NCBI GenBank assembly: GCA_950295325.1
Contig: OX485806.1
Location: forward strand, 41,044,001 to 41,108,000
Direction: 5' to 3'
Length of the DNA stretch: 64,000 nt
Origin: Polytrichum commune
Taxonomy: Eukaryota; Streptophyta; Polytrichopsida; Polytrichales; Polytrichaceae
The position numbers were made by a program, and so were the translations under genes. Below the pieces are notes generated by a model. That model saw nothing but the letters and a program-made list of their open reading frames with translations. It was not told the DNA's origin and made no database searches. Below are positions 2,815-57,700 of this stretch, one piece after another. Each line of letters starts with the position of its first letter. The stretch's first letter is position 1.

Positions 2815-4497
2815 GCATGGATTAGACCGGGATGGTCCACTGGAGATGGCAGGAAGGTATTTATTCCCGTCACATTTGCAGCCACTGCTATGACTATGGT
2901 TGCGGAAGCAATGTTTGGTTGCAGCGGTTCAGTTGCAGATTTGCCTTGTGCTCCAGTTTTATTGGAGGAAACAATGGACTACACTTGTAATGCGGCAGAA
3001 CAACAATTTTTACCATCTTTTCAAATCCCTGCTCGTCATGTCAAGGATCCACCTCCACCATGGCGAACTCCTAAGGAGTTATCCGACCATTGTCGACACA
3101 TTGTAGCGGATTTGGAGCTTGGAGAGGCACCCCCAACTTCATCCTTATTTTCTTTTGCTCAACTCATTCGTTGGCAACCATCACCTGAAGGTCTTGTCCT
3201 TGTGGAGATCTTTGGAGGCATTGGCACAGGTTTGGCGGCAGTGTTGGAAGCTGGAATTACAGTTTGGCGATATATTCATGTGGACAATGGATATGCAGCC
3301 AACAGAGCCGTCCGACACCACATCCAACAATTGTTGTTGAGATACCCCGCACAATTGTCAGCCTCTGCCATTCATGGATGTTGTGGTCAACTTCCTCAAG
3401 ATGTCACTATGATTAGTGATGAGGATTTGAGAAGGTTGGGCCACGTGGATTTGATTATTGCAGGATGGCCTTGTCAAGGCCATTCGCGGGCAGGAACTGG
3501 CCAGGGATTGGATGATCCTAGGTCTAGTTTGTTTGCGGATTTGATGCGATTGACGCAATGGTGGTCTACCCACCAATCAACTCCGCCAGGGTACATTTTC
3601 GAAAATGTACCATTATTGGGTGATACCCGGCACAAAGTGGTGAAGGATGGCGAGTACATTCACCAAATTCTGGGTACTCCAACATTTTTGGATGCTGTAT
3701 CTTTGGGATCCTTTGCTCATCGGCCTCGTTGGTTTTGGACCAACTTGGTAACACCTCGGGTGCTTTCAGCGGTGATTGCCCACATTCCCCGCCTTATGGA
3801 TCGCAAAGTGGATGACATTTTAGATGATCATCGTGTTTCCTTGGCAGTTACCAAGGATGACACCTTGCCATTTGCATTAATTAATAAGGTGGGCATTCCA
3901 AGAGGTGCACTACCTACTTTTGTAACATATCCACAGTCTTTTGCATTTCGATCTCGTGGACCTGGCATGGTTTGGGATTCAAAAACCCAAACTTATGAGG
4001 AGCCTACGGCAGATGAGCGGGAACGCGCCATGGGTTTTCTTACAGGTACCACGGCTGCTCACGGGCTTCAGGAAGGTCAGAGACGTTTCCTATTGGGGCA
4101 AGCTATGGATCTTAATAGCATTGTGTGGATAATTGGAATTTGTCTTGCTGCTCAACAACGTATGGATGACCAATTGTTTACTCTGAGGGCAGAGAACAAT
4201 GGTCAGGGGGCAATGGAGCCGCAATCCAAGGATCACATTGAGGTCAATGACACCGAGGGATTATTTCCTTTAAAACTTCATGTTGCGGAAGAGCTTCGAG
4301 CCCAACGTGTTTTTTCGGCTTTGGCCCAAGAGTTTGGGAAGTTGGAGGCCCATAAAATGTTTCCACTTCTATTTCTTGGTGATACTTCATATGTGGGTAG
4401 CTATTTAGCTACACAAACTGATTGTAGTGGAGAGAATACGCATTTGGATTCAAGTGCAGATGATGGGGGCAAAGGTGTTGCCCTCTCCACGGACTAG
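2815..4497 (+). CDS. C5-cytosine DNA methyltransferase domain inside the retrotransposon polyprotein
   Basis: Numbered from ATG 2890 (535 residues), the domain shows motif I FGGIGTG (residue 108), an acidic residue in HVDNGY for cofactor binding, catalytic motif IV GWPCQGHSRAG (Cys195), motif VI FENV (238), a motif VIII-like AHRPRWFWTN (about 276) and a C-terminal GQAMDLNS block resembling motif X. Order is canonical, not permuted as in plant DRM enzymes; the motif VIII form is closer to DNMT3/DRM than to DNMT1. All core catalytic residues are present, so it should transfer methyl groups from S-adenosylmethionine to cytosine if made. The frame is open from 2815, in phase with gag, so ATG 2890 need not be the true start. 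It sits between protease and RT, where gypsy elements normally have only a linker. It ends at TAG 4495. Confidence 0.9.
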   Translation, partial: AWIRPGWSTGDGRKVFIPVTFAATAMTMVAEAMFGCSGSVADLPCAPVLLEETMDYTCNAAEQQFLPSFQIPARHVKDPPPPWRTPKELSDHCRHIVADLELGEAPPTSSLFSFAQLIRWQPSPEGLVLVEIFGGIGTGLAAVLEAGITVWRYIHVDNGYAANRAVRHHIQQLLLRYPAQLSASAIHGCCGQLPQDVTMISDEDLRRLGHVDLIIAGWPCQGHSRAGTGQGLDDPRSSLFADLMRLTQWWSTHQSTPPGYIFENVPLLGDTRHKVVKDGEYIHQILGTPTFLDAVSLGSFAHRPRWFWTNLVTPRVLSAVIAHIPRLMDRKVDDILDDHRVSLAVTKDDTLPFALINKVGIPRGALPTFVTYPQSFAFRSRGPGMVWDSKTQTYEEPTADERERAMGFLTGTTAAHGLQEGQRRFLLGQAMDLNSIVWIIGICLAAQQRMDDQLFTLRAENNGQGAMEPQSKDHIEVNDTEGLFPLKLHVAEELRAQRVFSALAQEFGKLEAHKMFPLLFLGDTSYVGSYLATQTDCSGENTHLDSSADDGGKGVALSTD

Positions 4498-4503
4498 CAA
4501 TCA
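4495..4503 (+). promoter_or_regulatory. Candidate stop-codon readthrough signal between methyltransferase and pol
   Basis: The stop is followed directly by CAATCA, giving TAG CAA TCA. This fits the tobamovirus-type readthrough consensus UAG-CAR-YYA at every position. The frame stays open after the stop for about 35 codons until a one-base shift near 4601. A leaky stop here would limit pol relative to gag-methyltransferase. Chance occurrence or simple mutation from CAG cannot be excluded. Confidence 0.4.
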
Positions 4504-4601
4504 CAGGCTGTGTTGGCACCAAGTGGCAATCCTTCTATAAAGAAGGAAACCACGGAGTTTGACGATTGGCCAATTGAAGTGGGCCAAAGCTTACTGGTGC
4601 C

Positions 4602-5855
4602 GAAGCACGAAAGGTACGGGCATTTATTCGCTCTTACCGTAATTATTTTGCCTTTAGTCTTCATGATCTTGAAGGATATAAAGGTAAACCTGTTCGTATT
4701 CAACTCGAGGACGACCACCCTATTTTCAGATGGCCATATAGACTTAGTACCTCTGAAAGGTTGGGTGTTCAAACTCGATGTCAAGAATTATTGGCAGCGG
4801 AATTGATTGAACTCTCCAATGGAGAGTATGCTTGTGCCACGGTTATGCCGTCAAAGAATGATATCTTTGGCAACTGGACGGAAAAACGGATGTGTGGTGA
4901 TTATCGTCCAGTCAACCGCAAGACCAAGTCGGATCGATATCCAATGCCGATGCCGGAGGAGTTGTTTGATGCACTAGGATTTTCTAGAATCTTCAGCACT
5001 TTGGATTTGAGGTCTGGTTATCACCAATTACCTTTGTTGTTGGGTGATCGGGTGAAGACCGCATTTTGGGGAATTGATAAAGATGGCAAGGATCAACTTT
5101 ATCATTGGAAATTTCTGCCATTTGGTCTCAAGAATGCACCAGCTGAATTTCAGCGGGTGATGGACCAATTATTGGCTGGTTTGCCGTTTGCTAGATGTTA
5201 CATTGATGATGTTATTATCTTTAGTAATAGTCCACAGGATCATGTGAGGCATTTGCAAGCGGTATTTGAACGACTTCAACGGTGGGGACTCCGTTTACAT
5301 CATGGAAAATGTAAGTTTTTCCATGATCAATTGCCCTATTTAGGCCACATGATTGTTCATGGCGGTCTTGGTGTGCAACAGGCGAAGGTGGATGCTTTGC
5401 ACAAAATTCCCGCACCTAGTGATGTACCACGGCTTCGTGCATTTCTAGGATTGGCAAATTATTATAGGAGGTTTGTCAAAAACTTTAGTTTGATTGCCAA
5501 ACCTCTTACCATTCTCACGGGGAAAGACCAACCATGGATTTGGAGTAGGGAACAACAACAGACATTTGATACATTGAAGCAGAGGCTCGGTTCAGCGCTA
5601 GTGCTTCGACGCCCGGATGTGTCTAGAGCTTTTCAATTGTACACGGATTGGAGTGCAGTGGGATTGGGAGCGGTATTGACACAGAAAGATGAAGAGGGAA
5701 AAAAATATGTGGTGGCTTATGCATCTAGAAGCAATAATAGTGCTGAATCTAATTATTCTTCTTATGAAGGCGAGGCCTTGGCGGCCGTTTGGGCCATTGC
5801 ACATTTTCGACCTTATTTGTATGGGCAAAAGTTTACTTTGGTGACTGATCATTAG
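4602..5855 (+). pseudogene. Reverse transcriptase and RNase H of the Ty3/gypsy element (one nonsense codon)
   Basis: The frame-3 reading begins near 4602; frame 1 holds the upstream part and the join needs one inserted base at 4600-4602, where no slippery heptamer is seen. RT motifs in order are MCGDYRPVN, FSTLDLRSGYHQLPL, KFLPFGLKNAPAEFQ and the catalytic YIDD at 5199-5210, followed by FLGLANYYRRFVKNFS of the gypsy connection. RNase H has YTDWS, YEGEALA and LVTDH. The next codon, TAG at 5853-5855, stands where almost all gypsy elements have Gln before PLKWL, so this is a C-to-T nonsense change of CAG. The frame resumes unchanged after it. The enzyme would copy element RNA into DNA in cytoplasmic particles. 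Confidence 0.88.
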
Positions 5856-7640
5856 CCTTTAAAATGGCTTATGGAATCAGATAAGCTCACCGGGAAACTT
5901 GCTAGGTGGGCATTGTTACTTCAGGAATATGATTTTGAAGTTGTTCACCGAGCAGGAATTGCCAACTTGGATGCAGACGGATTGTCTCGTAATTCAAGTC
6001 CTTCAGATGAGGATTTAACTGGAGCCAGGTGGCATGGAGATTGTGATCGTGAGGCAGTGCCGGGTTGGCATGCTGCCACATATCTCACAATGATGTCGGG
6101 ATTGGCTGCTGAGATCCTTGTAGAAGAACAAGATGAGGAGGTTGATAAATCTCTCGTTGTTAGTGATGTGTGGGAAGACCAGGCGGTCTTGTACAAACTT
6201 CAACAAGGGATATTTCCTCTTGGACTATCTGCTATGGAGCGAGATAGAGTTAGTCACCGGATAACAAGGTTTCGTTGGGCAAACAACTTGTTATTTCGTG
6301 TGTGGCCGAACGGAACGAGGCGCATCGTTCCAAGGCCAGATCAAAGAGCTTCTTTGGTACGGCAAGTGCACGAGGAGCTTGGACATTTTGGAGTGCGAAG
6401 GACGTACTCTATGTTGCGCAACCAATATTGGTGGACTGGTATGTATCAACAGGTTGCCACTTATGTTTCTCGGTGTGAAGTATGTGACCGGATCAGGTCA
6501 AGTTTTAATACTTTGTCACCTCAACTTCAGCCTTTACCTATTATGGGCTTGGGATATCGTTGGTCTTTGGATTTTTCCGGACCGCTTACTATCACTCCAC
6601 GTGGTTCCAAGTATGTGCTTGTGATGGTGGAGCATTTTAGTAAGTGGATTGAACTCGTGGCTCTTCCCCAAAATTCCTCAGAATTGGCGGCTATGGCATT
6701 TCTTGATCGAGTTTTGGCACGGTTTGGAGCACCTGCAGAGGTGTTGACAGATCAAGGGAGAGAATTCCTTGGATCTTTCGAGGCTTTGTGTACCAAGGCT
6801 TTGATTGATCATCAAACAACTTCCAGAGATCACCCTGAGGCAGATGGCTTAGCTGAACGAGTTGTTCAGACGGTTAAGCGCGGTTTGCGGAAGTATGGAT
6901 TGCTTCATGGCAACCATCGCGATTGGGACTTGATGTTACCATGGATAGCAATGGGTTATCGTTTCAGCAGGCAAGCATCTTTGGCATCCTATAGTCCTTA
7001 CCAACTCTTGTATGGACGGGAACCAATTTTACCTAGCTCGGTGCGAGAGAAATTGGCTCCCGTGGTAAACTTGGATGATCCAAATGTTTGGGCTCAATGT
7101 TTTCAGGACCGAGCAACGTTCTTCCAAAAGGCCATGCCTATGGCTATGGAGAACTTAAATATTGCTCAACATCGTGATACATTACGGTATGCCCGGATCC
7201 GCAGTGGAGCTTATCGACCTCAGGTTCGTAGATTTTCCAAAGGGGATTATGTTTACTTGCAACGGGAGGCGCCTACGACATTGGATGTCAAGGCTGGGCG
7301 CACGATTTTGCGGGTAAAAGATGTCTTGCCAAGTGGTATATTATTGCTTGAAGGCAAGGATGGACGGGAATGTCGTGAGCATTCAAAGAATTGTGCTCCA
7401 TGTCACCTTCCCATCGACGGCTCTGTGCATCCCGAGTTGGCGGTTGTACCACAGGGTCTGCATTGTTATGTTTGTGGAGAGAAGACAAGAGCTGTAACAA
7501 TGTTATTGTGCGACCAATGTCAACGTGGATGGCACATGGCATGTTTGACACCTCCCATTTTGACTCTTCCTTCTGGCAATTGGGTTTGTCCTCGTTGTCG
7601 GAAAGCCTCTCATTCCGTGGCCGTTAATGGTCATGATTGA
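5856..7640 (+). CDS. RNase H tail, integrase and C-terminal PHD finger
   Basis: This continues the RT frame after TAG 5853; the first ATG is at 5871. It completes RNase H (HRAGIANLDADGLSR). The integrase has an HHCC zinc site (HEELGH at 6369 and CEVC ending near 6485) and a DDE core with Asp at 6570 (SLDFSG), Asp at 6750 (LTDQGREF) and Glu at 6855 (LAERVVQ), a D-to-E spacing of about 35 residues. A GDYVYLQ/GILLLEG segment resembles the GPY/F module. Instead of a chromodomain, the C-terminus (7465-7602) is a C4HC3 PHD finger: CYVC, LLCDQCQRGWHMAC, then NWVCPRC. PHD fingers usually read the histone H3 tail, so this may steer integration. The tail ends at TGA 7638. Confidence 0.9.
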   Translation, partial: PLKWLMESDKLTGKLARWALLLQEYDFEVVHRAGIANLDADGLSRNSSPSDEDLTGARWHGDCDREAVPGWHAATYLTMMSGLAAEILVEEQDEEVDKSLVVSDVWEDQAVLYKLQQGIFPLGLSAMERDRVSHRITRFRWANNLLFRVWPNGTRRIVPRPDQRASLVRQVHEELGHFGVRRTYSMLRNQYWWTGMYQQVATYVSRCEVCDRIRSSFNTLSPQLQPLPIMGLGYRWSLDFSGPLTITPRGSKYVLVMVEHFSKWIELVALPQNSSELAAMAFLDRVLARFGAPAEVLTDQGREFLGSFEALCTKALIDHQTTSRDHPEADGLAERVVQTVKRGLRKYGLLHGNHRDWDLMLPWIAMGYRFSRQASLASYSPYQLLYGREPILPSSVREKLAPVVNLDDPNVWAQCFQDRATFFQKAMPMAMENLNIAQHRDTLRYARIRSGAYRPQVRRFSKGDYVYLQREAPTTLDVKAGRTILRVKDVLPSGILLLEGKDGRECREHSKNCAPCHLPIDGSVHPELAVVPQGLHCYVCGEKTRAVTMLLCDQCQRGWHMACLTPPILTLPSGNWVCPRCRKASHSVAVNGHD

Positions 7641-7965: not shown

Positions 7966-8612
7966 CTTGAAGAGGTGGTTGTTTAGCATTTTAGTTTGCT
8001 ATTTTATTTTGCTAATTGATGTTGACGACGACACTCAATCTGTTGTGTTTAACGATCTTAGTTTACACGACAGCTGTCACGTGAGGTGACATCGGGGCTA
8101 AGTCACGTCAATTTAGGAGTAAATGAACTCCACTAGGAGTCCATGTGTGTTGGGATGAGTAACGGACTCCATTGGGAGTCCTAGTTAGTTGTTCATCCAC
8201 TCCATGGATGAACTCCACATAGGATTGGGGTTGTATGGAGAGGAAGGCCTCTTGACTTGCCATTGTTGTCAAGTCAAGTCTTGTGAGTGTGTTTTGAGAG
8301 AGAGAGAGCTTGTTGTTGCTTTCTCATGGCTATGGTGTAATAGATTATGAGTAAAGCCTTTGCATTCTTTCTCCACCACTTGCACTCTTGGATTCTCCCT
8401 TCGTGGAGTGAGAGATAGCTTGACTCTTGTGTGTGAATTTTAGAGTTTCTTAAGCTTTGTAAGGAGACATTTTAGTTTCTTAAGCTTGGAGAGAGAAACC
8501 CTCATCTTGAAGAGGTGGTTGTTTAGCATTTTAGTTTGCTATTTTATTTTGCTAATTGATGTTGACGACGACACTCGATCTGTTGTGTTTAACGATCTTA
8601 GTTTACACGACA
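7966..8612 (+). repeat. Candidate 3' LTR with 107-bp direct repeats at both ends
   Basis: The segment at 7966-8072 is repeated almost exactly at 8506-8612, exactly 540 bp downstream, with one clear mismatch (ACTCAATC versus ACTCGATC). Reading from TG at 7980 to CA at 8612 gives a 633-bp segment with the usual TG...CA ends. Alternatives are a 540-bp LTR followed by a second, truncated LTR, or an unrelated miniature terminal-repeat element. The 5' LTR is outside the window, so the boundaries cannot be confirmed. No clear TATA box or polyadenylation signal was found. Confidence 0.45.
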
Positions 8613-10625
8613 ACAACTTCATGGTCCATGATGTAAATAACCCTTGAAATGCATCGGATCCACCTCCTAAAGTGCTCAAATTTGAAGTGACTTGACCACG
8701 TGATCCTTGTAGTAAATTTAATTCATGATTCCAAACCCTCTAAGTCCAAGGATGCGAGAATTATGAGGATGAAAATATTCTTTGGAAACTAGAATGGATG
8801 GAAAGCAAAACCCTTACAAATGGTCCACTCTTCTTCAAGATCCCATCTCCATGGAACATCAAAAGTCATAGATTTGATCCTATGGCCCCCTTTTAATGGC
8901 TAGATCATCCAAACCAATTTTGAAAGCAAAAGTTAGAGTGGCCCACATCTAATCTTTCAAATATAATCACTATGGGTTGCCATTTGATGTGAGCACTTTA
9001 TGCTCAAAGTTGGAAATAACCGTAGATTGCTCTAATATATTGTTGTCCCTACTCATCACACATACATTTCAGTGTAGTAAAAATGTGACCTTCAACCCTT
9101 TCACGTCTTGTTCGTTGTAATGGAGGAAGAGGAGTGTCAAATGGCGGAAATCACTGTTCCATGTATAAAACTTTGTAACATTGTGGTGGCCTAAATAGCA
9201 TTATTAAACTTCTTATGGGGTCTCCTTTGTTTGAGACGTTAAAATCCATTGCAACAAGAATAATGGACTGATTTCATACACGTTAAGGATGAATTGAGCT
9301 TATCCGGATTATTACTTACTCTCAGTATGCTCAATTGCGTAGGTTGCATGATTAAGAAAAAGGTTTAGGATGCCCAATGTACAATTCATAACACTCGTAT
9401 GGTAATAATAAATTATGCACCTTTGTGAGATATGTCGTGTCATGTCATTACAATTTAACCCATTGAGCCATGAAAGATGTTGGGTCTCAATGTATGATCT
9501 GATATATTATTTATATGGGCCTCATCAAGTTCATGAATCGTATTTTACATATTTATGCATTTGAAACATTATCTTATACATTGTCGTATGTCAAGGAGAA
9601 ATTAAAAATATACTCATTTGTGACAAAAACTGGTCAAAATACAACATATGGATTTGTGTTCAAAGACACTCATCTTGCATATTTGAACTTAAATTTTCAA
9701 TAAGATTAGAGTAACATATATAAACCGATTCAAAATGTGCACTTGGAGAAGAATTAAAAGTTAGATGGGATGCTTGTAACATAATTGACTAAAGTAAAAA
9801 TATGTAGCTCAAATACATGTATTTGTGCATAGAGCAACCTAATCTAGGCCTCTTGGACACTTAAGGGTTAAGACATGGGCGTTTGAAATCACTTGAACTT
9901 TGGTGCAATTTGGTCAAAAAATGTAAGGTGCCAAAAATGGCAGAAATTTGGAAGACATTCATCATCATCTGGGTAACAAAAGAAATGTTTTAAAGGCCAC
10001 TAAAGGAGATTGCATGTTTGAAAATTTGGTTAAGTGGTTCTCATAAGCTTGAATGGAGGTAAGAATCTTGTACAAACCTTGTGGAATATGTATTCATGTT
10101 AAGTTATCATTATGAGAACGAAATTCACTTTGAAAAAAATTCTCTACAGAAAATGAACCTTTTGAAAAGAAGAATTGAAACCGCATTGTGTTCTCCCAGT
10201 CCCAAGTTCGGGGTGAACAACAGTGTTGGATCAGGCCAAGGCTTGCCTTCATTATTAGTGTTCAATTCATCTCATTTTTTTCTCTGAATCAGTCCCAACC
10301 AATTCCTAATAACATCAATGTACAGATCTGTACACACAACCTTTTTATCTTTTTTTTGGGGGGTCCACTTTCGTCGTTGTAAAATTGCCACAACTTCATT
10401 GCTACAATTTTACAAGTTTTTGCGCAATCATCGGAGGAGTCGATCACCTGATAACGTGAGCAGAACGAGGGGAGGAACGGCTTTGAAAGTTAATCATGGA
10501 TGATTGCGAAGAAACGGGCGATGTGTTATTGTACAGTCAAGTTCAGTTACTCTAATTTTGAGGAGAGAGACAACCAGCTTCTTTCTCCAAGAATTTTTTT
10601 TGGTTGAATTTACACCCGGTAATAA
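8613..10625. other. Intergenic stretch, no gene seen
   Basis: This 2-kb AT-rich stretch has no open frame with recognisable content, no tandem array and no clear transposon ends. It separates the retrotransposon from the 3' end of the F-box gene, which reads toward it. Confidence 0.6.
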
Positions 10626-39296: not shown

Positions 39297-39467
39297 CTGG
39301 ATCATGTTTCGGAAACGTTAAGCTGCCTCTAGCCTATCATTTCACTCTCTCCTCTTGCTGGCCCTTAACATTGTCGCAGTAACTAGTCCCCTTAATTTCG
39401 TTTTGTTTCTTTACCTTGGGTTGCCGCCTCCGATTCCTAAACTGCTTCTCTCTCCCAAACCAGCTCC

Positions 39468-39905
39468 ATGGCCGGAAGTTCTTTTTCCACTCCATGTCGA
39501 CACGTGATCTTGTTTCAAGTGCTACTGATTCTTGCTCTCCTGGCAACAAGCGTCCGGTGCAAGAGGCTTACCGTGCGCATCAAGAATGAGATGGGGCCCG
39601 AGATGGACCTGGAGGTGCACTGCCACTCCTACGTCGCCAGAACCGATCTCGGTGCGCACAACTTGCCCGATAATGCCATCTACAGCTTCTCTTTCCCGCA
39701 ACGGACTTTCCCCGAGCTCGACAACGTCGTCTACGAGTGCACATTTGTCGCCCTGGGATTCCCGGCAGCGTATGTCCCCGTCTACAGCGGCTCCTACTAC
39801 CCGAACACGCATTGCTCGTGCAGGCGGGGCCGGTGCCCCTGGTGGAGGGTCACCCCTGCAGGCTTTTTTTGCGGAGGAAAGTTGGCCGCTGCCTGGCCAT
39901 TCTGA
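39468..39905 (+). CDS. S-protein homologue (SPH), secreted self-incompatibility S1-like protein
   Basis: This intronless 145-residue protein has a hydrophobic signal peptide (VLLILALLATSVRC, cleavage near residue 31). An S1-type domain follows: TVRIKNEMGP, LEVHCHSYVARTDLGAHNLP, YSFSFPQ, VYECTFVALG, then a cysteine-rich end HCSCRRGRCPWWRVTPAG. Length and cysteine pattern fit the plant SPH family, small secreted proteins; the founding poppy S1 is a stigma ligand in self-incompatibility, while most homologues have unknown roles. A 5' copy lies just upstream, so the gene arose or was rearranged in a local duplication. The coding region is richer in GC than its surroundings. Start ATG 39468 has an in-frame signal peptide and a good context. 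Confidence 0.8.
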   Translation: MAGSSFSTPCRHVILFQVLLILALLATSVRCKRLTVRIKNEMGPEMDLEVHCHSYVARTDLGAHNLPDNAIYSFSFPQRTFPELDNVVYECTFVALGFPAAYVPVYSGSYYPNTHCSCRRGRCPWWRVTPAGFFCGGKLAAAWPF

Positions 39906-43151: not shown

Positions 43152-44351
<1,200 letters not shown>

Positions 44352-49913: not shown

Positions 49914-52900
49914 ATGGACATACCTTCAACCTCCTCGGAGGATGGCTTCTTTTATCCTTCAGATTTTGATGATGACTTAGAATTTGTGGTAGAGGTAGAT
50001 GAACTCTTTCGTGATGTTTTGGGTGGCCAAAACCCACTATTGCCATATTCTGGAGTACTAGAGTACTACTCAAGTGACAATGAATCAAATGGTGGAGGAG
50101 AGAAATAAAGTTTTGGAGATGAAGAAGTGGTGGACATAGTGGGGCAACAATCATCACACGACTTGGACTTTGTTGAAGAAGAAGGCATTGAAGTTCTTTA
50201 ATTTGACAATGTGAGTGTTGAATCAATGCCAAATGGTTTTATTTTTACCAAATCTAGTTTGGCGCTCATGATTCAATGTGTAGTATCGGGGTTGCAACCT
50301 AGTTTTCTTCAAATACGGATTGCCGATCCCAATTTTCTACCTATTCTTCAACACCATGGTAGACCTGTTGATCCCAATGATCCTATACACATTGTAGAAC
50401 GTTGGGTACGGTTGCAAAAAAAAATGTAAAAGTTTTAGGTAGTCCACATGGACTTCTTTTAAGCCCATGTAGTGTTAAGATGGGGCGAACATAACTTCTA
50501 GTGACCTTTGGCATTCTATTGTGAAGCAAGCCCATTGTTATGTTAGTGGCAAACATTCCTCTTTGAAATTCACGGTGCATTCCATACGATAACAATGGTC
50601 TACCGATGTAAAAGTGGGTGGGATCCCGTATTATTTCATAGAAAGAAGCATCTAATCTTGTGCAACTTGTAGTGGTTTAGGACCATTTTGGGATGAAGTT
50701 GTTAAGGTTCCATTAGAAAAATTGCAAGACATTCTTAACAATATATGTGCGAAGCATATAGTAGCTCGTAGAGTAAAAAGTAAGAGGCAAACAATATCTA
50801 CGTTGGTCACTATCTACTATTGTCATAGAGGGGGGAAACAAAGAATTAGGAGAGAGAAGGAAGAAGTGAATTATACCCGGTGGGAGATAAAATCTTACAA
50901 GTGTGATTGTGAGTTTTTTTTAAAACAAATTGTGTCTTCTATGAATACAAAGTCATGTATTGAAGTTGCTAAACAAGCGATGACCGAAATACATATGCAC
51001 TCCAAACATTCTAGTCGCAACCCGGGAAGCGAGGGTAACAAATACTTCTTACCAGTTCATCATTTGGTGCTTTCATTTGCAACTGAGAATTTCAAAATGA
51101 TGATGTCTCCTTCAATTGTAATTGTTATTTCACTCAAAGAAGCAAAGAAGTTTGAAAATATGGTAACCTATTTTGAACAAGTCACATTTCGATTTTTTAT
51201 TCTTGTGGAGGAGGTCGAGGCATTATCATATTCCACTAGACTAAATGATGCGTTCCTCTAACATTTTGCTACCTTCATCATTCAACATTATTTATTTGAG
51301 TTTCATTGAAATTTTTGTATGTGTTATACCTAACCAAGGTGTCTTGTATGACCCTTATAAATGCTGCTCGAAAAGATGATTGGGATGCCACTTAACTTAA
51401 AATTCTTGGGCTGTAAGCAAAAAAAAATGTGATTTTTTAATTAAAAATATGACAAGAAGCACGAAAATGTACGAAAAAGACCTTTCATTGTCGTCATCCA
51501 ATATGAATTCATGAGATACATTGCTAAGAGATTTTCTACGGGGAACTCATGGGCGTTGGATTCTACCTTCAAAACCAACAATTATGACCTACTATTATAC
51601 GTTGCGATTGTTCTGAATGACGACAGCCAAAACATGCCAGTTTTCTATATGTTTTGTTCTAAAGACAAGGGACAAGGCCATCGAGGTATTGCTATTAATA
51701 TTGATTTGGAATATGTTTTAAAAAATATGGGGAATGTAAGATATAGTACGATTTTTATAGACAAATATATGACATCTTTGAATGTCATAACAATAATTAT
51801 AATAATTGATCATTTTTGTTGGAAGAATAAACAAATAAGGGGTGAACAAATTGCATGTCAAATTTTACTTTGCCACTTCTATGGTATGAAAATATGGAGT
51901 AAGCATCTTCTCCCCCGTGTTCCATTTGATAGGAGAGATGAATTGAGACAATTGCTTATAACACTATTACATTGTCCGGTGGAAGCACATTTTGATTTTA
52001 ATGTTCAAAACCTCTTTCGAGCGTTTGAAGCCATTCCGGGAGTAATTCAATACGTACATTCGGGGTGGACTAGCTCTTCTTCACCTTGGAGGTCGTAATG
52101 GCCCAAGTTTGGCCACATATTTTCTTACAGAGGCATGAACACCACAAATCATGTGGAAATGAATTGGGAGCGAGATTTAGTAGTGGCAATCATAGGGAGC
52201 GCCAATGATAGAGCTCGGGTTGGAGGACCCACACTTCTAGATTATTTCAAATCACGGCAAGGCATAAATAGGTAGCATCTAACTAAATTTGAATCATTTA
52301 CTTTCAAACAATAAATTGATTATAGAAGGAAGAGTAGATAATAAGGTTTTTTATGTTTACTAAATATAGTTATTTATTTTATTCTATAAAAACAATTTTT
52401 TGATATTTTGAACGTTTAAAATATTTTATATGAAATGGTACAAAAAACTACATTGTTGGAAATTTATTTTATCACATAATAATCTCAGTAATTGGAGTAG
52501 GAGAGAGTCATTTGAAGAGCTATAATATTTGTTAAATAACTTTGCTTAAAATAATTTTAAATAGTGGTTTCCAACCAGTTTGAAGAATATTAAACATATG
52601 CCCATTTTAAAATTTAGGTGTAGGTGATTCCGAAAGGTTTTCAAGGAGGGCAAATAACAAAGTCCATTAACGGCGTTTGAAGGGTAGAGAAATGATTTAT
52701 AAATTATATGTTAGAAATCCCAACAGAGTTTTTTAAATTCTTAACAAAAACTTCCTTCTATTTCGCATTCGAAGTGAGATTAAACCGGACACCATATATA
52801 ATGTGTCTTTGAGTCGCCATTATTATACTTATTCAACAGTAATTGCAACTTATAAATATATTATTGGATTACAACTTATATTGAAGAAATATCTTTCGAC

Positions 52901-53525: not shown

Positions 53526-54347
53526 TGTGAATTTCTCTATCAACTTCAACATTATTAAATTTTGAATATTGTCTATTTAGTTTTGATGTATTACGTGTTA
53601 ATACAATTTTAGGAATTTGATCGTATATTGTTAATTATATATATGAAAACTATCATGTTTGTTTCTCTCCTTACTGAATACACTAATTATTTTTTTACTT
53701 GAGAAATTTAAGTTTTTAAAATTTGCTTATAATCATGAATAATTATTAGAATCAATATAAATGCCTAATGCTATATTAATTTTTTCCTTTCTATAAATTG
53801 AATTATTGCTTAAAATTGCTCTAAATTCTGTAATGATTGGTGATAATGATAGACTAATGTATAAACTTCTATACTTTAAAATTATTTATGTTGTTTTTTC
53901 ACATAGAAAAGAACCAAATTCATACTTGAGCTGTTTTGATTCTATTTGAATACAATTCAATTATAATGAGTGCATGTTATGAGAAGCCGTTATAATTACA
54001 CAAGTGGTTGTCATATAGATACATTAAAATCTATTGTAAACAAAATAGAAACTAGTGGATTCTTTCGACAATGACCAAACGGAGAACAAGGAACACGCAT
54101 TATATTTTATCTATACAATTAAAATAACACAATCAGAGATCCAATCATAATGAACACTTGACACACCTAAACCCTAATAGAATCCAGTTAATAAATTTGA
54201 ATGAAACGTGAAGATTTTACTCTTCTCATTGAAATAGAAATTGGTTGTTTCAAATCCATTTGTAATAAGTGATAAAAATAAGAAGTTCTATTGGAATCCA
54301 AGTACACAATACTTATAAATTTTTATCCGGACCTAGACAACCCTACT
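53526..54347. other. AT-rich stretch, no gene seen
   Basis: Very AT-rich sequence with no frame of note and no recognised repeat. Confidence 0.5.
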
Positions 54348-54735
54348 GGCAGTCTGCTCCTAATCCAGCTGATATGGCTCAGCCTTCACCTCCCGGCAGT
54401 CTGCTCCTAATCCAGCTGATATGGCTCAGCCTTCACCTCCCGGCAGTCTGCTCCTAATCCAGCTGATATAGCTAAGCCTTCACCTCCGGGCAGTGTGCTC
54501 CTAATCCAGTTGATATGGCTAAGCCTTCACCTCCCGGCAGTCTGCTCCTAACCCAGCTGATATGGCTAAGCCTTCACCTCCCGGCAGTCTGCTCCTAATC
54601 CAAATGATATGGCTAAGCCTTCACCTCCCAGCAGTCTGCTCCTAATCCAGCTGATATGATTAAGCCTTCACCTCCCGGCAGTCTGCTCCTAACCCAACTG
54701 ATATGGCTAAGCCTTCACCTCCCAGCAGTCTGCTT
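54348..54735 (+). repeat. 47-bp minisatellite, about 8.3 units
   Basis: Units begin GGCAGTCTGCTCCTAATCCA and occur at 54348, 54395, 54442, 54489, 54536, 54583, 54630, 54677 and 54724, an exact 47-bp period. Differences among units are a few substitutions. The period is not a multiple of three, so it is not a coding repeat. Confidence 0.92.
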
Positions 54736-57700
54736 CTAATCCCACACTAAGCCCCTACCTAATCACACTAAATCCCCTAATACCCTATTGCTAATTCACA
54801 CATTTTGTTCCTAACTCTAAAAAACTCAAAATCCTAGAGAGTAGAAGAAGAAGAGAGAGGGAGGAAAAGAGAGGAAAAAAATGAGGAGGAGAGGGCACCC
54901 AAGACCACAAACCCCTTAAAGGCTTAACCTTCTCCTACTTAGTACGACCTTCTCCTATCCACTAAATCCTCACCCTTTAAACCAACAAAAGCATGTTCTA
55001 ATTCAAACATTTAAATCCAAAGCACTTCTCCTTGCTTCAACAAACACTACTCACTCAACCACAACACTTCCTAATGTCACTAAGCTTCTAATTAACCACA
55101 CAAAATAGGCTTAAGGCCTAACACATAAACCACACCAAGCCTCACTTTTTTAATACTTTTGATTGTTTCAATATCACTCCAAATGCAATTCTAAATAAAT
55201 TCTAAACATAAAACAAATATGAGCACTCATTTTGGGCTCATAGATACCCTCTGTAAAGAAGCACATTATATGGTCATATACATATTTTCGGGCGTTCATA
55301 CTAAATATGAGCAATACTCTGTTGTATGACGTCTTTTAGTGTTTGTGCCGCAGTGCGCACGAATATGTATTGTCTAACGATTATACGAATTTGCAACGTT
55401 TCCGAACAAATATGTGTTCTACAACGTAATTTCATGGATTACAATTGCCGGAATCTGTTTAATTGTCATATTACATAGAAACGTTATTCTCTTTAAAGAA
55501 CATAATCTATATTTCCAGGCGTTCATACAAAGTCTTACCAAAAGTTTGTTGTCTGAATTTTTTTCATGTGTATTAGCGTTTGCACAAGTTTATATGTTAT
55601 ATGACTGCAATAAGTTTTGGGGAATATGACGCACGAATATATGTTATACAATGTAGTTTCGCGGCTTATCATGGCTAATACGTGTTTAATGGTTACATTA
55701 CATATAAACGTTATCCTCTGTAGAGAAGCACATTATTTGTTTATATGCATTTTTTTGGTCGTTCCAACTAAGTCTGCCCGCTAAACTGTTATATTACATG
55801 TTTTCGTGTGTAAGAGAGTGTGCAAATGAGGACGTGTCAAATTACTGCAATAAATATTTTCACATCTTGGGCACGAATATGTAACACCCAACGTAATTTC
55901 GTGGATTACAATGACCGGAACCTGTTTAATGGTTAATTGACATGAAAACATTACCTAATGAAGGAACAACAACATATTGTGAAAAATTACACATTTGTGT
56001 GGTCCACAATTTATGGACCCCAGTAACACATCGAAAGAGACCTAATTGTTGTGGTTGCATATTGTAACACCATAGCAAGTTCGCCACCTACCGCACGAAT
56101 ATTTAATTTTCTTGAAAAAATAAGGTTTGCCTTCCAAAAATGGATTTAGATCCTAAATCTCTCAAAGTTTGAGGGGTGGGAAGAGGAGGTCCCAAAATTT
56201 GCACCCAACTTTCAAAATAGGCTCCAACGTATGACGAGCTAGCGAACTCTTAATAGAAAGTTTTCTCAAAGAAGGATCAAACCCATGGTTTTATCCCACT
56301 TTGAGGGACTTCACAAATACCTCTAATATGTTTGGGTCAGATTCGATATATATTTACTTAATTGTATTGTTTCATTTCGCCAAAGGCAAATACTATTTGA
56401 TATCATGACTTTATTAGTCACAATGTAGAAAATGCACCCCGTTCTGACTTCACTATTGTTTCCTTAGATTGGTAAGTATCCCACCTTAGCATAATGCAAA
56501 AAAATTCATCGAGTTCTTGCCATTAAAGGCACTTTGCAGGTCAATCACAAGGTCAATCAACCCACTAAACCTTTCCATGGTTTGAGTTGAACTTCGTGTT
56601 AGGTTTTGTATTTTCCGGCATAGTGCAAGTGATCATAGTCCAAAATCAAAGAACAATTTTGTGTTCAATCAAAAATCTAAAAGGATTTTCTTACATACTA
56701 TATGCTAGACAAACATATGCACCTTTCTTTGTCATGATTTGGGACATGTATAGTTGGCACGTCTCCAAATTCTTTATAGACCATCAATGGTGAAGGTGTA
56801 CCCACATGATGTCTTTCAAAACTTTGCTACTATGAACAACTTTGAGCTTCTAACTACCTGGTGAGCAAGGCCTTTGATACGCTATGTACGCAAGGAATTT
56901 GATTTATGAGTCCATAATGTACAGGTTTATTTATATCTCTTCCATTATTGAATTGTATGGATGCACTTTTGTTTGAGGAAATGTCAGGTTTAAGCTCTAA
57001 TTGTGGAAGACAAAATTTATAACAAAAACACTTGCAAGTGTTTGTGACAAATTCAAGTCTTATACTTCATGCATGGTGCGTCAATTATTAATAACTGGTA
57101 TTTCTTTCTTGGCCTGCAATTACATGGCTTTTGTTGATGTACGACCGTGAACCACGAGAAGCCAAATTAACTTAGGACTTGATAATATTGCTTTCCATTG
57201 GCAAAGTTCCACCCATTTTCTTTCACAATCTTTTGAACATCGCCATGGAAAATATAACCAATCTCTTCACCATTTGGGATGCTGCATATCAAGGTATTGA
57301 AAGCTATTGTTAACTGCAATATTGGACTCTTGTTCTTACTTGCTCTACACTTCTCTAAACCTTCGCTTACAAAAATAAATCAAATTTTTGTGTAAAAAGC
57401 CTCAAATTCTTGGCAGAAAGAATTGGTGAATTTTTGGTCCGAAACATGAGTTTTGATTGGTTGTTGCAATGTGATATGAACTAGGTAATGAATGTGAGGA
57501 GCCTTGCCATTACTGGATGAAGTGTCAAGCCATGGCAGAGTTATCCATTATGGATGATAATGTGTCTCCTTGTATCCAATCAAGAATAGCCACATCAGCA
57601 AAATCGCTTAGCATGACAACTAAGAAGGTAGACTTTTTGTTAAACTCTTCCCATAAGCGTATGTACATTCATAAGTGGCATGCTCTCCTATTACAAATTT
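54736..57700. other. Stretch with transposon fragments, no intact gene
   Basis: Around 55240-55930 a unit with GAAGCACATTATxTGxTxATAT, ACGAATATxT, TACAACGTAATTTCGTGGATTACAA and CATATAxACGTTATCCTCTxTAxAGAA recurs three or four times with period about 220 bp, a diverged tandem array. At 56066-56150 lies a truncated left end of the 317-bp TIR element (GTAACACCATAGCAAGTTCG), and at 56152-56330 the second copy of the 40771-40933 repeat directly abuts it. Other frames show no domain. Confidence 0.55.

Follow-up and report, generated by a model that had tools for sequence, protein, structure and literature searches.

The locus examined here raises the question of whether a cytosine DNA methyltransferase (MTase) found inside a retrotransposon polyprotein of Polytrichum commune is an integral part of the element and, if so, where it came from and what it would do for its carrier. 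In the window (the whole 64-kb stretch of DNA that was analysed), the forward-strand frame at 2815–4497 is open over 560 codons, and reading it bore out the MTase motifs that the initial annotation had listed in canonical order: FGGIGTG at 3211, GWPCQGHS at 3463, FENV at 3598, HRPRWFWTN at 3718 and GQAMDLN at 4096 (motifs I, IV, VI, VIII and X). A profile search, which that annotation had proposed, returned a methyltransferase match (Pfam PF00145, E 6.5e-12, with 46 bits where the cut-off is 22), and PHROGs and NCBIfam yielded only general cytosine methylase families. The interval held up as an open MTase frame, while the catalytic domain proper, delimited by Pfam, PDB matches and the structural model, covers about 3172–4179; the rest comprises a protease–MTase linker (2815–3171), the first 70 residues of which are mostly of low model confidence, and a C-terminal tail (4180–4494).

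Among C5 MTases of known structure, the enzyme is closest to DNMT3. DNMT3B and DNMT3A were the first matches of the single protein in a PDB sequence search (2e-7), and a 27-row family profile matched DNMT3A at 3e-24, ahead of 4onj (1.5e-12), which we take to be a DRM, DRM2 (2e-9), DNMT2 (6e-8) and HhaI (1e-7). An AlphaFold model built from the 27-row family alignment had a mean confidence of 76 over 560 residues, with residues 121–220 at 92–97 per block of ten; its predicted fold matched DNMT3B/3A with a TM score of 0.80 when normalised to the target and 0.43 when normalised to the query (E 7e-15), and the 50 solved neighbours listed were DNMT3 chains or complexes, the first at 20% identity. 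The motif order is non-permuted, unlike that of DRM, so that the claim of a DNMT3-like, non-permuted enzyme agrees with PDB matches, fold and motif order alike. Compared with DNMT3A/DNMT3B, its best sequence and fold match, the MTase shares about 20% identity over the fold, has PCQ for PCN and, by Pfam, comes with no PWWP or ADD domain; a PHD finger is, however, found on the integrase of the MTase's own polyprotein. By sequence and predicted fold, 2815–4497 thus encodes a complete, non-permuted DNMT3-like cytosine MTase.

Across the aligned family members, the catalytic Cys was kept in 89/90, the motif VI Glu in 89/90 and the motif VIII Arg in 88/90, and the Pro preceding the catalytic Cys was replaced by Glu in 11/90. 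Three Chlamydomonas eustigma proteins (P0056, P0057 and P0058) have FEC in place of PC in motif IV and ENT in motif VI, and the MTase of this branch may therefore be altered or inactive. The family-wide retention of these residues in 88–89 of 90 members, to which the C. eustigma proteins may be an exception, bears on an explanation that we consider improbable, namely that the domain methylates or merely binds nucleic acid such as element RNA as a part of the particle, DNA methylation not being its job. Its position adjoining Gag would suit such a role, and RNA methylation has been offered for LINE-borne DNMTs (PMC5890265), but the best match is to DNMT3, which acts on DNA, with DNMT2 far weaker (3e-24 versus 6e-8).

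The surrounding domains placed the MTase, as annotated, between the protease (DSGA at 2521) and the reverse transcriptase (RT; from 4578) of a gypsy-type element. The window copy measures 10,053 bp (G000:C4:41042560–41052612), of which 1,441 bp lie to the left of the window. All of its features are on the forward strand. Comparison of termini assigned 1–399 to the right part of the 5′ untranslated leader, the element start lying outside the window. The gag frame spans 337–2814 with its first in-frame ATG at 400, and 400–2811 encode gag, with two CCHC-type knuckles (1462 and 1603), and the aspartic protease (translation and Pfam). An in-frame stop at 2812–2814 precedes the MTase frame, which ends in a second, conserved stop read as TAG-CAATCA (4495–4503). 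The RT and most of RNase H follow at 4578–5855, in a shifted frame that closes with a stop at 5853–5855 (translation and Pfam), and 5856–7640 encode the end of RNase H, the integrase zinc finger, the DDE core and a C-terminal PHD finger (about 7464–7598), as seen by Pfam and structure matches. With the stop at 2812–2814, the frame change before RT and the stop at 5853–5855, the window copy is interrupted, and hence only its MTase frame is shown intact among its parts. Ty3 was the best solved match of the RT–RNase H–integrase frame, with domains in gypsy order in one polyprotein. The solved PHD fingers matched by that of the integrase include those of PHF21A, CHD4, UHRF1 and AIRE, whose histone-tail specificity is for H3 unmodified at K4.

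Beyond the element, the window contains a polyubiquitin gene of five ubiquitin units (43155–44351, reverse strand), a frame resembling plant self-incompatibility protein S1 (39441–39902, forward strand), a piece of a MULE-type transposase (51445–52095) and a 47-nt tandem repeat array (54248–54811); no tRNAs or Rfam families were found in the 64-kb window.

The ends of the element, assessed in ten copies, that of the window included, by comparing the sequence on either side, proved unusual. The left end consists of a repeat A1 and the right end of B1-GC-A2-B2, that is, split direct repeats in the order A1...B1-A2-B2. In the window copy, A (431 nt) and B (107 nt) each differ by one base between their two versions; A1 lies 1.0–1.4 kb left of the window start (G000:C4:41042560–41042990), and B1 (7966–8072), A2 (8075–8505, joined to B1 by the GC) and B2 (8506–8612) follow the coding region. 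The termini read TGTC...GACA, and the right copy of a 4-bp target duplication, ACAA, occupies 8613–8616, its left counterpart standing directly before A1, outside the window. Both ends were found in seven of the ten copies, all seven with a perfect 4-bp duplication (ACAA, CATC, ACTT, ATTG, CAAA, GAAG and TAGC); the remaining three have A1, with no A2-B2 within the 8 kb covered, and one of them has B1. Gaps aside, A1 and A2 differed in these seven copies by 1, 0, 0, 0, 0, 0 and 2 bases (two pairs with 22–23 gapped columns), and because the repeats are nearly identical the insertions are recent. Genome-wide, the B end returned 303 matches at no more than two mismatches (reversed control, 0), and 32 neighbouring same-strand B pairs, 513–896 bp apart, occurred among the first 100 of the 303 matches listed.

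An ordinary LTR element was rejected, as the 3′ end is B1-A2-B2 and B was absent from all ten upstream pieces. The Ty3/gypsy assignment of the initial annotation consequently stands for pol order and phylogeny, and not for the ends, which are split direct repeats instead of two ordinary LTRs; with A1 at one end and B1-A2-B2 at the other, the element is best regarded as gypsy-type by its pol, its ends being unusual. Measured against the Ty3/gypsy elements (Metaviridae), it shares pol phylogeny and domain order and lacks two like LTRs at its ends; measured against DIRS/PAT elements, it shares the split direct repeats and lacks both the tyrosine recombinase and the absence of a target duplication. 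Split repeats are a trait of DIRS/PAT elements, whose insertion relies on a tyrosine recombinase and creates no target duplication. No recombinase was detected by Pfam here and a DDE integrase is present; to find the latter, along with a target duplication, in an element with split direct repeats is unusual. The B1-GC-A2 junction reads ..GACA-GC-TGTC.., equivalent to the element ends placed head to tail with two extra bases. No clear precedent for split direct repeats in gypsy elements appeared, by title, in the literature searched; the Fig. 4c legend of PMC5890265 describes KnitGypsy-Dnmt3 of Klebsormidium nitens as having gypsy domains with DIRS-like repeats.

The genome survey that the initial annotation had suggested revealed many further copies. 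From 668 first-look candidates, 78 copies were scored, 93–100% identical and distributed over all seven large contigs; as they were found via the MTase itself, which served as the search probe, the survey covers copies that carry the domain. The exact catalytic motif, which occurs in at least three spellings, had 252 matches in the 408-Mb genome and none in the reversed control. That the element is a one-off insertion, a chimera of the assembly or a contaminant, for which one might cite a close homologue (P0005) filed under a bacterial metagenome-assembled genome, is therefore exceedingly improbable: the 78 copies on all seven large contigs, the 252 motifs, the target duplications and homologues in named bryophytes stand against it, and we rejected it as refuted by the copy survey. 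P0005 itself, deposited as Candidatus Obscuribacterales, is a plant-type retrotransposon MTase and its filing probably reflects contamination. A stop-free gag–PR–MTase frame of 1386 codons was present in 15/78 scored copies and a stop-free MTase part in 33/78. The MTase had been described as in phase with gag; the phase is indeed the same, although the stop at 2812–2814 parts them in the window copy, the frame being open in the 15 copies just mentioned. Two side cases may be recorded: in one copy from another subfamily, the MTase is split by a Copia-type insertion that has a long open frame (L050:3457–6999), and another gypsy-type frame of 1233 aa (L035:4300–7998) has RT and integrase with no MTase noticed, and served as an outgroup.

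The stop between MTase and RT is a conserved feature. In 24 of the 30 copies nearest the window copy, RT is in frame with gag–PR–MTase with one TAG between them; in the other six, the window copy included, RT is parted from the MTase by more (another frame, a further stop, or an RT motif that was not found). The stop context in these 30 copies was TAGCAATCA in 29 and TAGCAACCA in one. Ten sites from other subfamilies, chosen by alternative spellings of the catalytic motif, gave TAGCAATTA or TAGCAGTTA in the MTase frame in eight cases (CAATTA or CAGTTA after TAG), one degraded copy reading TAGCAATTC and one piece ending short of the site. Overall, TAG-CARYYA was present in 38 of 39 readable copies (30/30 of the first family, 8/9 of other subfamilies), and the degraded copy aside, bases varied only where CARYYA permits. 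UAG-CARYYA is the leaky context of TMV, between 126K and 183K, and a like stop serves the env of SIRE1; in Polytrichum, unlike in these, the stop would divide Gag-PR-MTase from Pol. The frame after the TAG runs for 1047 codons and ends in the PHD finger in 4/9 downstream pieces. The MTase lies on the Gag–PR side of the stop, and since gag–PR–MTase precedes a conserved leaky-type TAG, the enzyme would be made at Gag level. None of the relatives P0001–P0029 continues into RT, in a protein search that favours shorter proteins, and ten Klebsormidium-like proteins (P0037, P0041, P0043 and P0045–P0051) do; as the protein searches exclude much longer proteins, bryophyte MTase–RT fusions could have been missed.

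Variation among copies indicated that the enzyme has been maintained. For the copies nearest the window copy (29/30 for the MTase, 23 for RT and 26 for gag–PR, out of the 78 scored and 668 candidates), pN/pS in the MTase domain was 1.28 for single-copy variants and 0.41 for shared ones (Fisher p 0.0012), with a comparable drop in RT (0.69 versus 0.24, p 0.0023) and one in the gag–PR end that was not significant (0.64 versus 0.27, p 0.089); the MTase C-terminal tail showed no drop (0.77 versus 1.04). Because pN/pS falls in shared variants, MTase changes after insertion are near neutral, while lineages still copying kept the enzyme. Comparison with a second subfamily gave a dN/dS of 0.11 in the MTase domain (191 codons) and 0.24 in the linker, with dS saturated. 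On these sequence comparisons, transmitted MTase variants are evidently under purifying selection.

We then considered the relatives and origin of the enzyme. A first protein search returned 44 relatives, with Calypogeia fissa, Marchantia polymorpha and Sphagnum troendelagicum as named hosts; a second returned 19 including the query, naming three from Klebsormidium nitens and three from Chlamydomonas eustigma; and a third returned 60 including the query, with names that suggest Chromochloris zofingiensis and Cymbomonas tetramitiformis as hosts. The kinship with Klebsormidium retrotransposon MTases that the initial annotation had raised is borne out by the MTase tree, K. nitens KFL_009030040 belonging to the same MTase and RT family as the Polytrichum element. 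In 82 proteins a domain adjacent to the MTase shows where it lies: 29 have the protease before it or RT after it, and 53 represent a second type, of which 26 have RT or RNase H ahead of the MTase, the remaining 27 being seen only as an MTase directly before the integrase. Within the bryophytes, the S. troendelagicum element P0034 is 54% identical over 707 aa to M. polymorpha P0027 and 39% to the Polytrichum family, a closeness that reflects either horizontal transfer or subfamilies of long standing.

The MTase tree (91 rows, quick search; 25/115 proteins were left out as too short) had human DNMT3A as its one cellular outgroup, and the RT outgroups were two, Ty3 and a further gypsy from the Polytrichum genome. 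The second (chlorophyte) type formed one side of a branch in the MTase tree (SH-aLRT 99) and a clade in the RT tree of 26 rows (100/99), in which the first type was paraphyletic; MTase-bearing elements grouped together against Ty3 and the other gypsy (99/99). The integrase tree did not separate the two types, recovering the second as a single clade in 44% of bootstrap replicates. The integrase tail and PHD finger were 35–51% identical over 123–188 aa between the Polytrichum element and the 30 second-type proteins listed. Independent captures of DNMT3-like genes by bryophyte, Klebsormidium and chlorophyte elements would account for the two positions of the MTase in the polyprotein (29 versus 53 of 82) and gain room from the few outgroups in the trees; such a history was concluded for K. 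nitens versus dinoflagellates in PMC5890265. We nevertheless consider it unlikely for the elements treated here, since a long branch (2.9) separates DNMT3A from the retrotransposon MTases, which are much nearer one another, their RTs group together, the chlorophyte type is a clade in both the MTase and RT trees, and the integrase tail and PHD finger are alike as well. The simplest reading of these sequences, and the one favoured, is a single MTase acquisition in which the position before RT came first and one later shift followed; it is favoured rather than shown because the trees draw on few outgroups and, within this gypsy lineage, on MTase-bearing members, and horizontal spread could also give the observed trees. 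Selection on the enzyme and its kinship with those of other mosses, liverworts and green algae suggest that a DNA-marking ability of their own may be a very old property of these elements. A donor within the host was also sought and rejected: a genome search for a host DNMT3 gave the retrotransposon copies and two short exon-like matches, with no clear DNMT3, and the one of these two that was read (L061) is DRM-like.

Placed among known systems, the element most resembles KnitGypsy-Dnmt3 (PMC5890265) in gypsy domain order, in a non-permuted Dnmt3-like MTase within pol that has the key residues, in DIRS-like repeats, in purifying selection and in the shared MTase/RT family. Domain order, an MTase between protease and RT, repeats and common descent (with few outgroups) all place it with this kind. 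The Polytrichum element differs in its land-plant host, where recent copies are numerous, in an MTase that precedes TAG-CARYYA where the K. nitens frame continues into RT, in the 4-bp target duplication shown for it, and in an integrase with a PHD finger; "PHD" is absent from the main text of PMC5890265, and P0048 ends before that region. De Mendoza et al. saw no methylation by the K. nitens enzyme in yeast, in an assay that by their own control did not decide the matter (PMC5890265). Dinoflagellate SymbioDIRS-Dnmt3 and SymbioLINE-Dnmt are likewise retrotransposons with a captured DNMT, and differ in belonging to the DIRS and LINE classes (PMC5890265). Elements of chlorophytes (Chlamydomonas eustigma, Chromochloris zofingiensis and others) have a related MTase, RT, integrase and PHD finger, but are arranged RT-RH-MTase-IN-PHD, with the MTase between RNase H and integrase; a limited literature search found no paper on them and we know of none. 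Split repeats are typical of DIRS elements. Chlamydomonas REM1 was considered as a PHD precedent and set aside, as PMC2774666 describes GPY/F and a chromodomain in it, not a PHD finger.

As to whether a land-plant copy may be undescribed, which the initial annotation had surmised, the host is a land plant and no land-plant or bryophyte description of an MTase-bearing element was found in the literature searched, mostly at the level of titles. An earlier mention is possible, given that DNMT3s inside streptophyte retrotransposons are referred to in general terms in PMC12344493. The kind is already known (Klebsormidium, 2018), and what is new are the termini, the leaky stop, the PHD finger and the distribution across the green lineage.

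Inserted copies carry a signature of cytosine methylation. Among singleton changes in the MTase region of L001–L030, 143/223 were C>T or G>A, at rates per site of 0.226 in CG, 0.198 in CHG and 0.166 in CHH, about 8-fold above A>G/T>C per A:T site (0.023); element copies are thus probably methylated in all contexts. The signal is not assignable to the element's enzyme because the host has MTases of its own, and the host DRM-like gene fragment (L061) is a gene separate from the element. CpG observed/expected showed no contrast between the element part (0.66) and the rest of the window (0.60). The genome search also encountered radial spoke exons and 42 dirigent matches, 41 of them over the cut-off, which together with the DRM-like gene mark the host as a land plant that reproduces by free spores.

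We regard as rather probable, taken as a whole, the explanation that the window holds most of one copy, recently inserted and since broken, of an abundant gypsy-type retrotransposon with a DNMT3-like de novo MTase that would operate as follows. Ribosomes would mostly halt at the TAG, leaving Gag-PR-MTase in excess, while occasional readthrough would yield the Pol fusion, and both products would be packed into the particle. The B1-A2 junction would template closure of the cDNA ends, and the MTase would methylate double-stranded cDNA before or at integration, and for that reason the new copy would arrive methylated. The PHD finger would steer the DDE integrase to chromatin, probably to H3 tails that lack methylation at K4. 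Finally, the gene for the MTase would most likely have been taken up once by an old green-lineage element clade, with one later move within the polyprotein. The observation of the initial annotation is confirmed and its interpretation partly supported: that the element methylates itself or hides in silenced chromatin is something we infer from sequence, and methylation could equally help the host to silence the element.

The methylation signature and the PHD finger can also be read in another way, which we think rather unlikely although not negligible: the target of the MTase may be host chromatin at the insertion site or close to it, or the enzyme may restrain the element's later expression, instead of protecting cDNA. 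The integrase PHD finger would bring the particle to chosen chromatin, the denser singleton C>T changes in all contexts suggest that inserted copies are probably heavily methylated, and restraint is also offered as an option by de Mendoza et al. (PMC5890265). Action inside the particle is, however, the better fit for an enzyme produced in surplus as part of Gag, as the stop would imply, and the C>T signal may come from host MTases, a DRM-like gene being present. Returning to cDNA methylation, a broader version of it is tentative, and we hold it to be possible without being likely: a DNMT3-like enzyme would have been gained before the chlorophyte/streptophyte split, or early in the green lineage, and kept since as a built-in methylation kit; in elements of the bryophyte type, the leaky stop would give a Gag-level MTase greatly outnumbering RT, which methylates the cDNA of its own particle before integration guided by the PHD finger. 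If this were true, one polyprotein would rebuild the pairing of histone-tail reader and de novo methylase found in cellular DNMT3.

Cytosine methylation is a main weapon of plants against transposons, and here Polytrichum elements bring an MTase of their own that is under selection. According to a 2019 paper (PMC6338049), land plants such as tracheophytes lack DNA methylases encoded by transposons; Polytrichum, itself a land plant, has at least 78 closely similar copies, and relatives occur in Marchantia, Calypogeia and Sphagnum among the named hosts. The conserved leaky-type stop makes a concrete prediction of stoichiometry, and recent copies together with lab-tractable bryophyte relatives make the benefit of a DNMT to its element, the question posed in PMC5890265, testable in a land plant. 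This is a real, selected and recently active lineage of methylase-bearing retrotransposons in a land plant.
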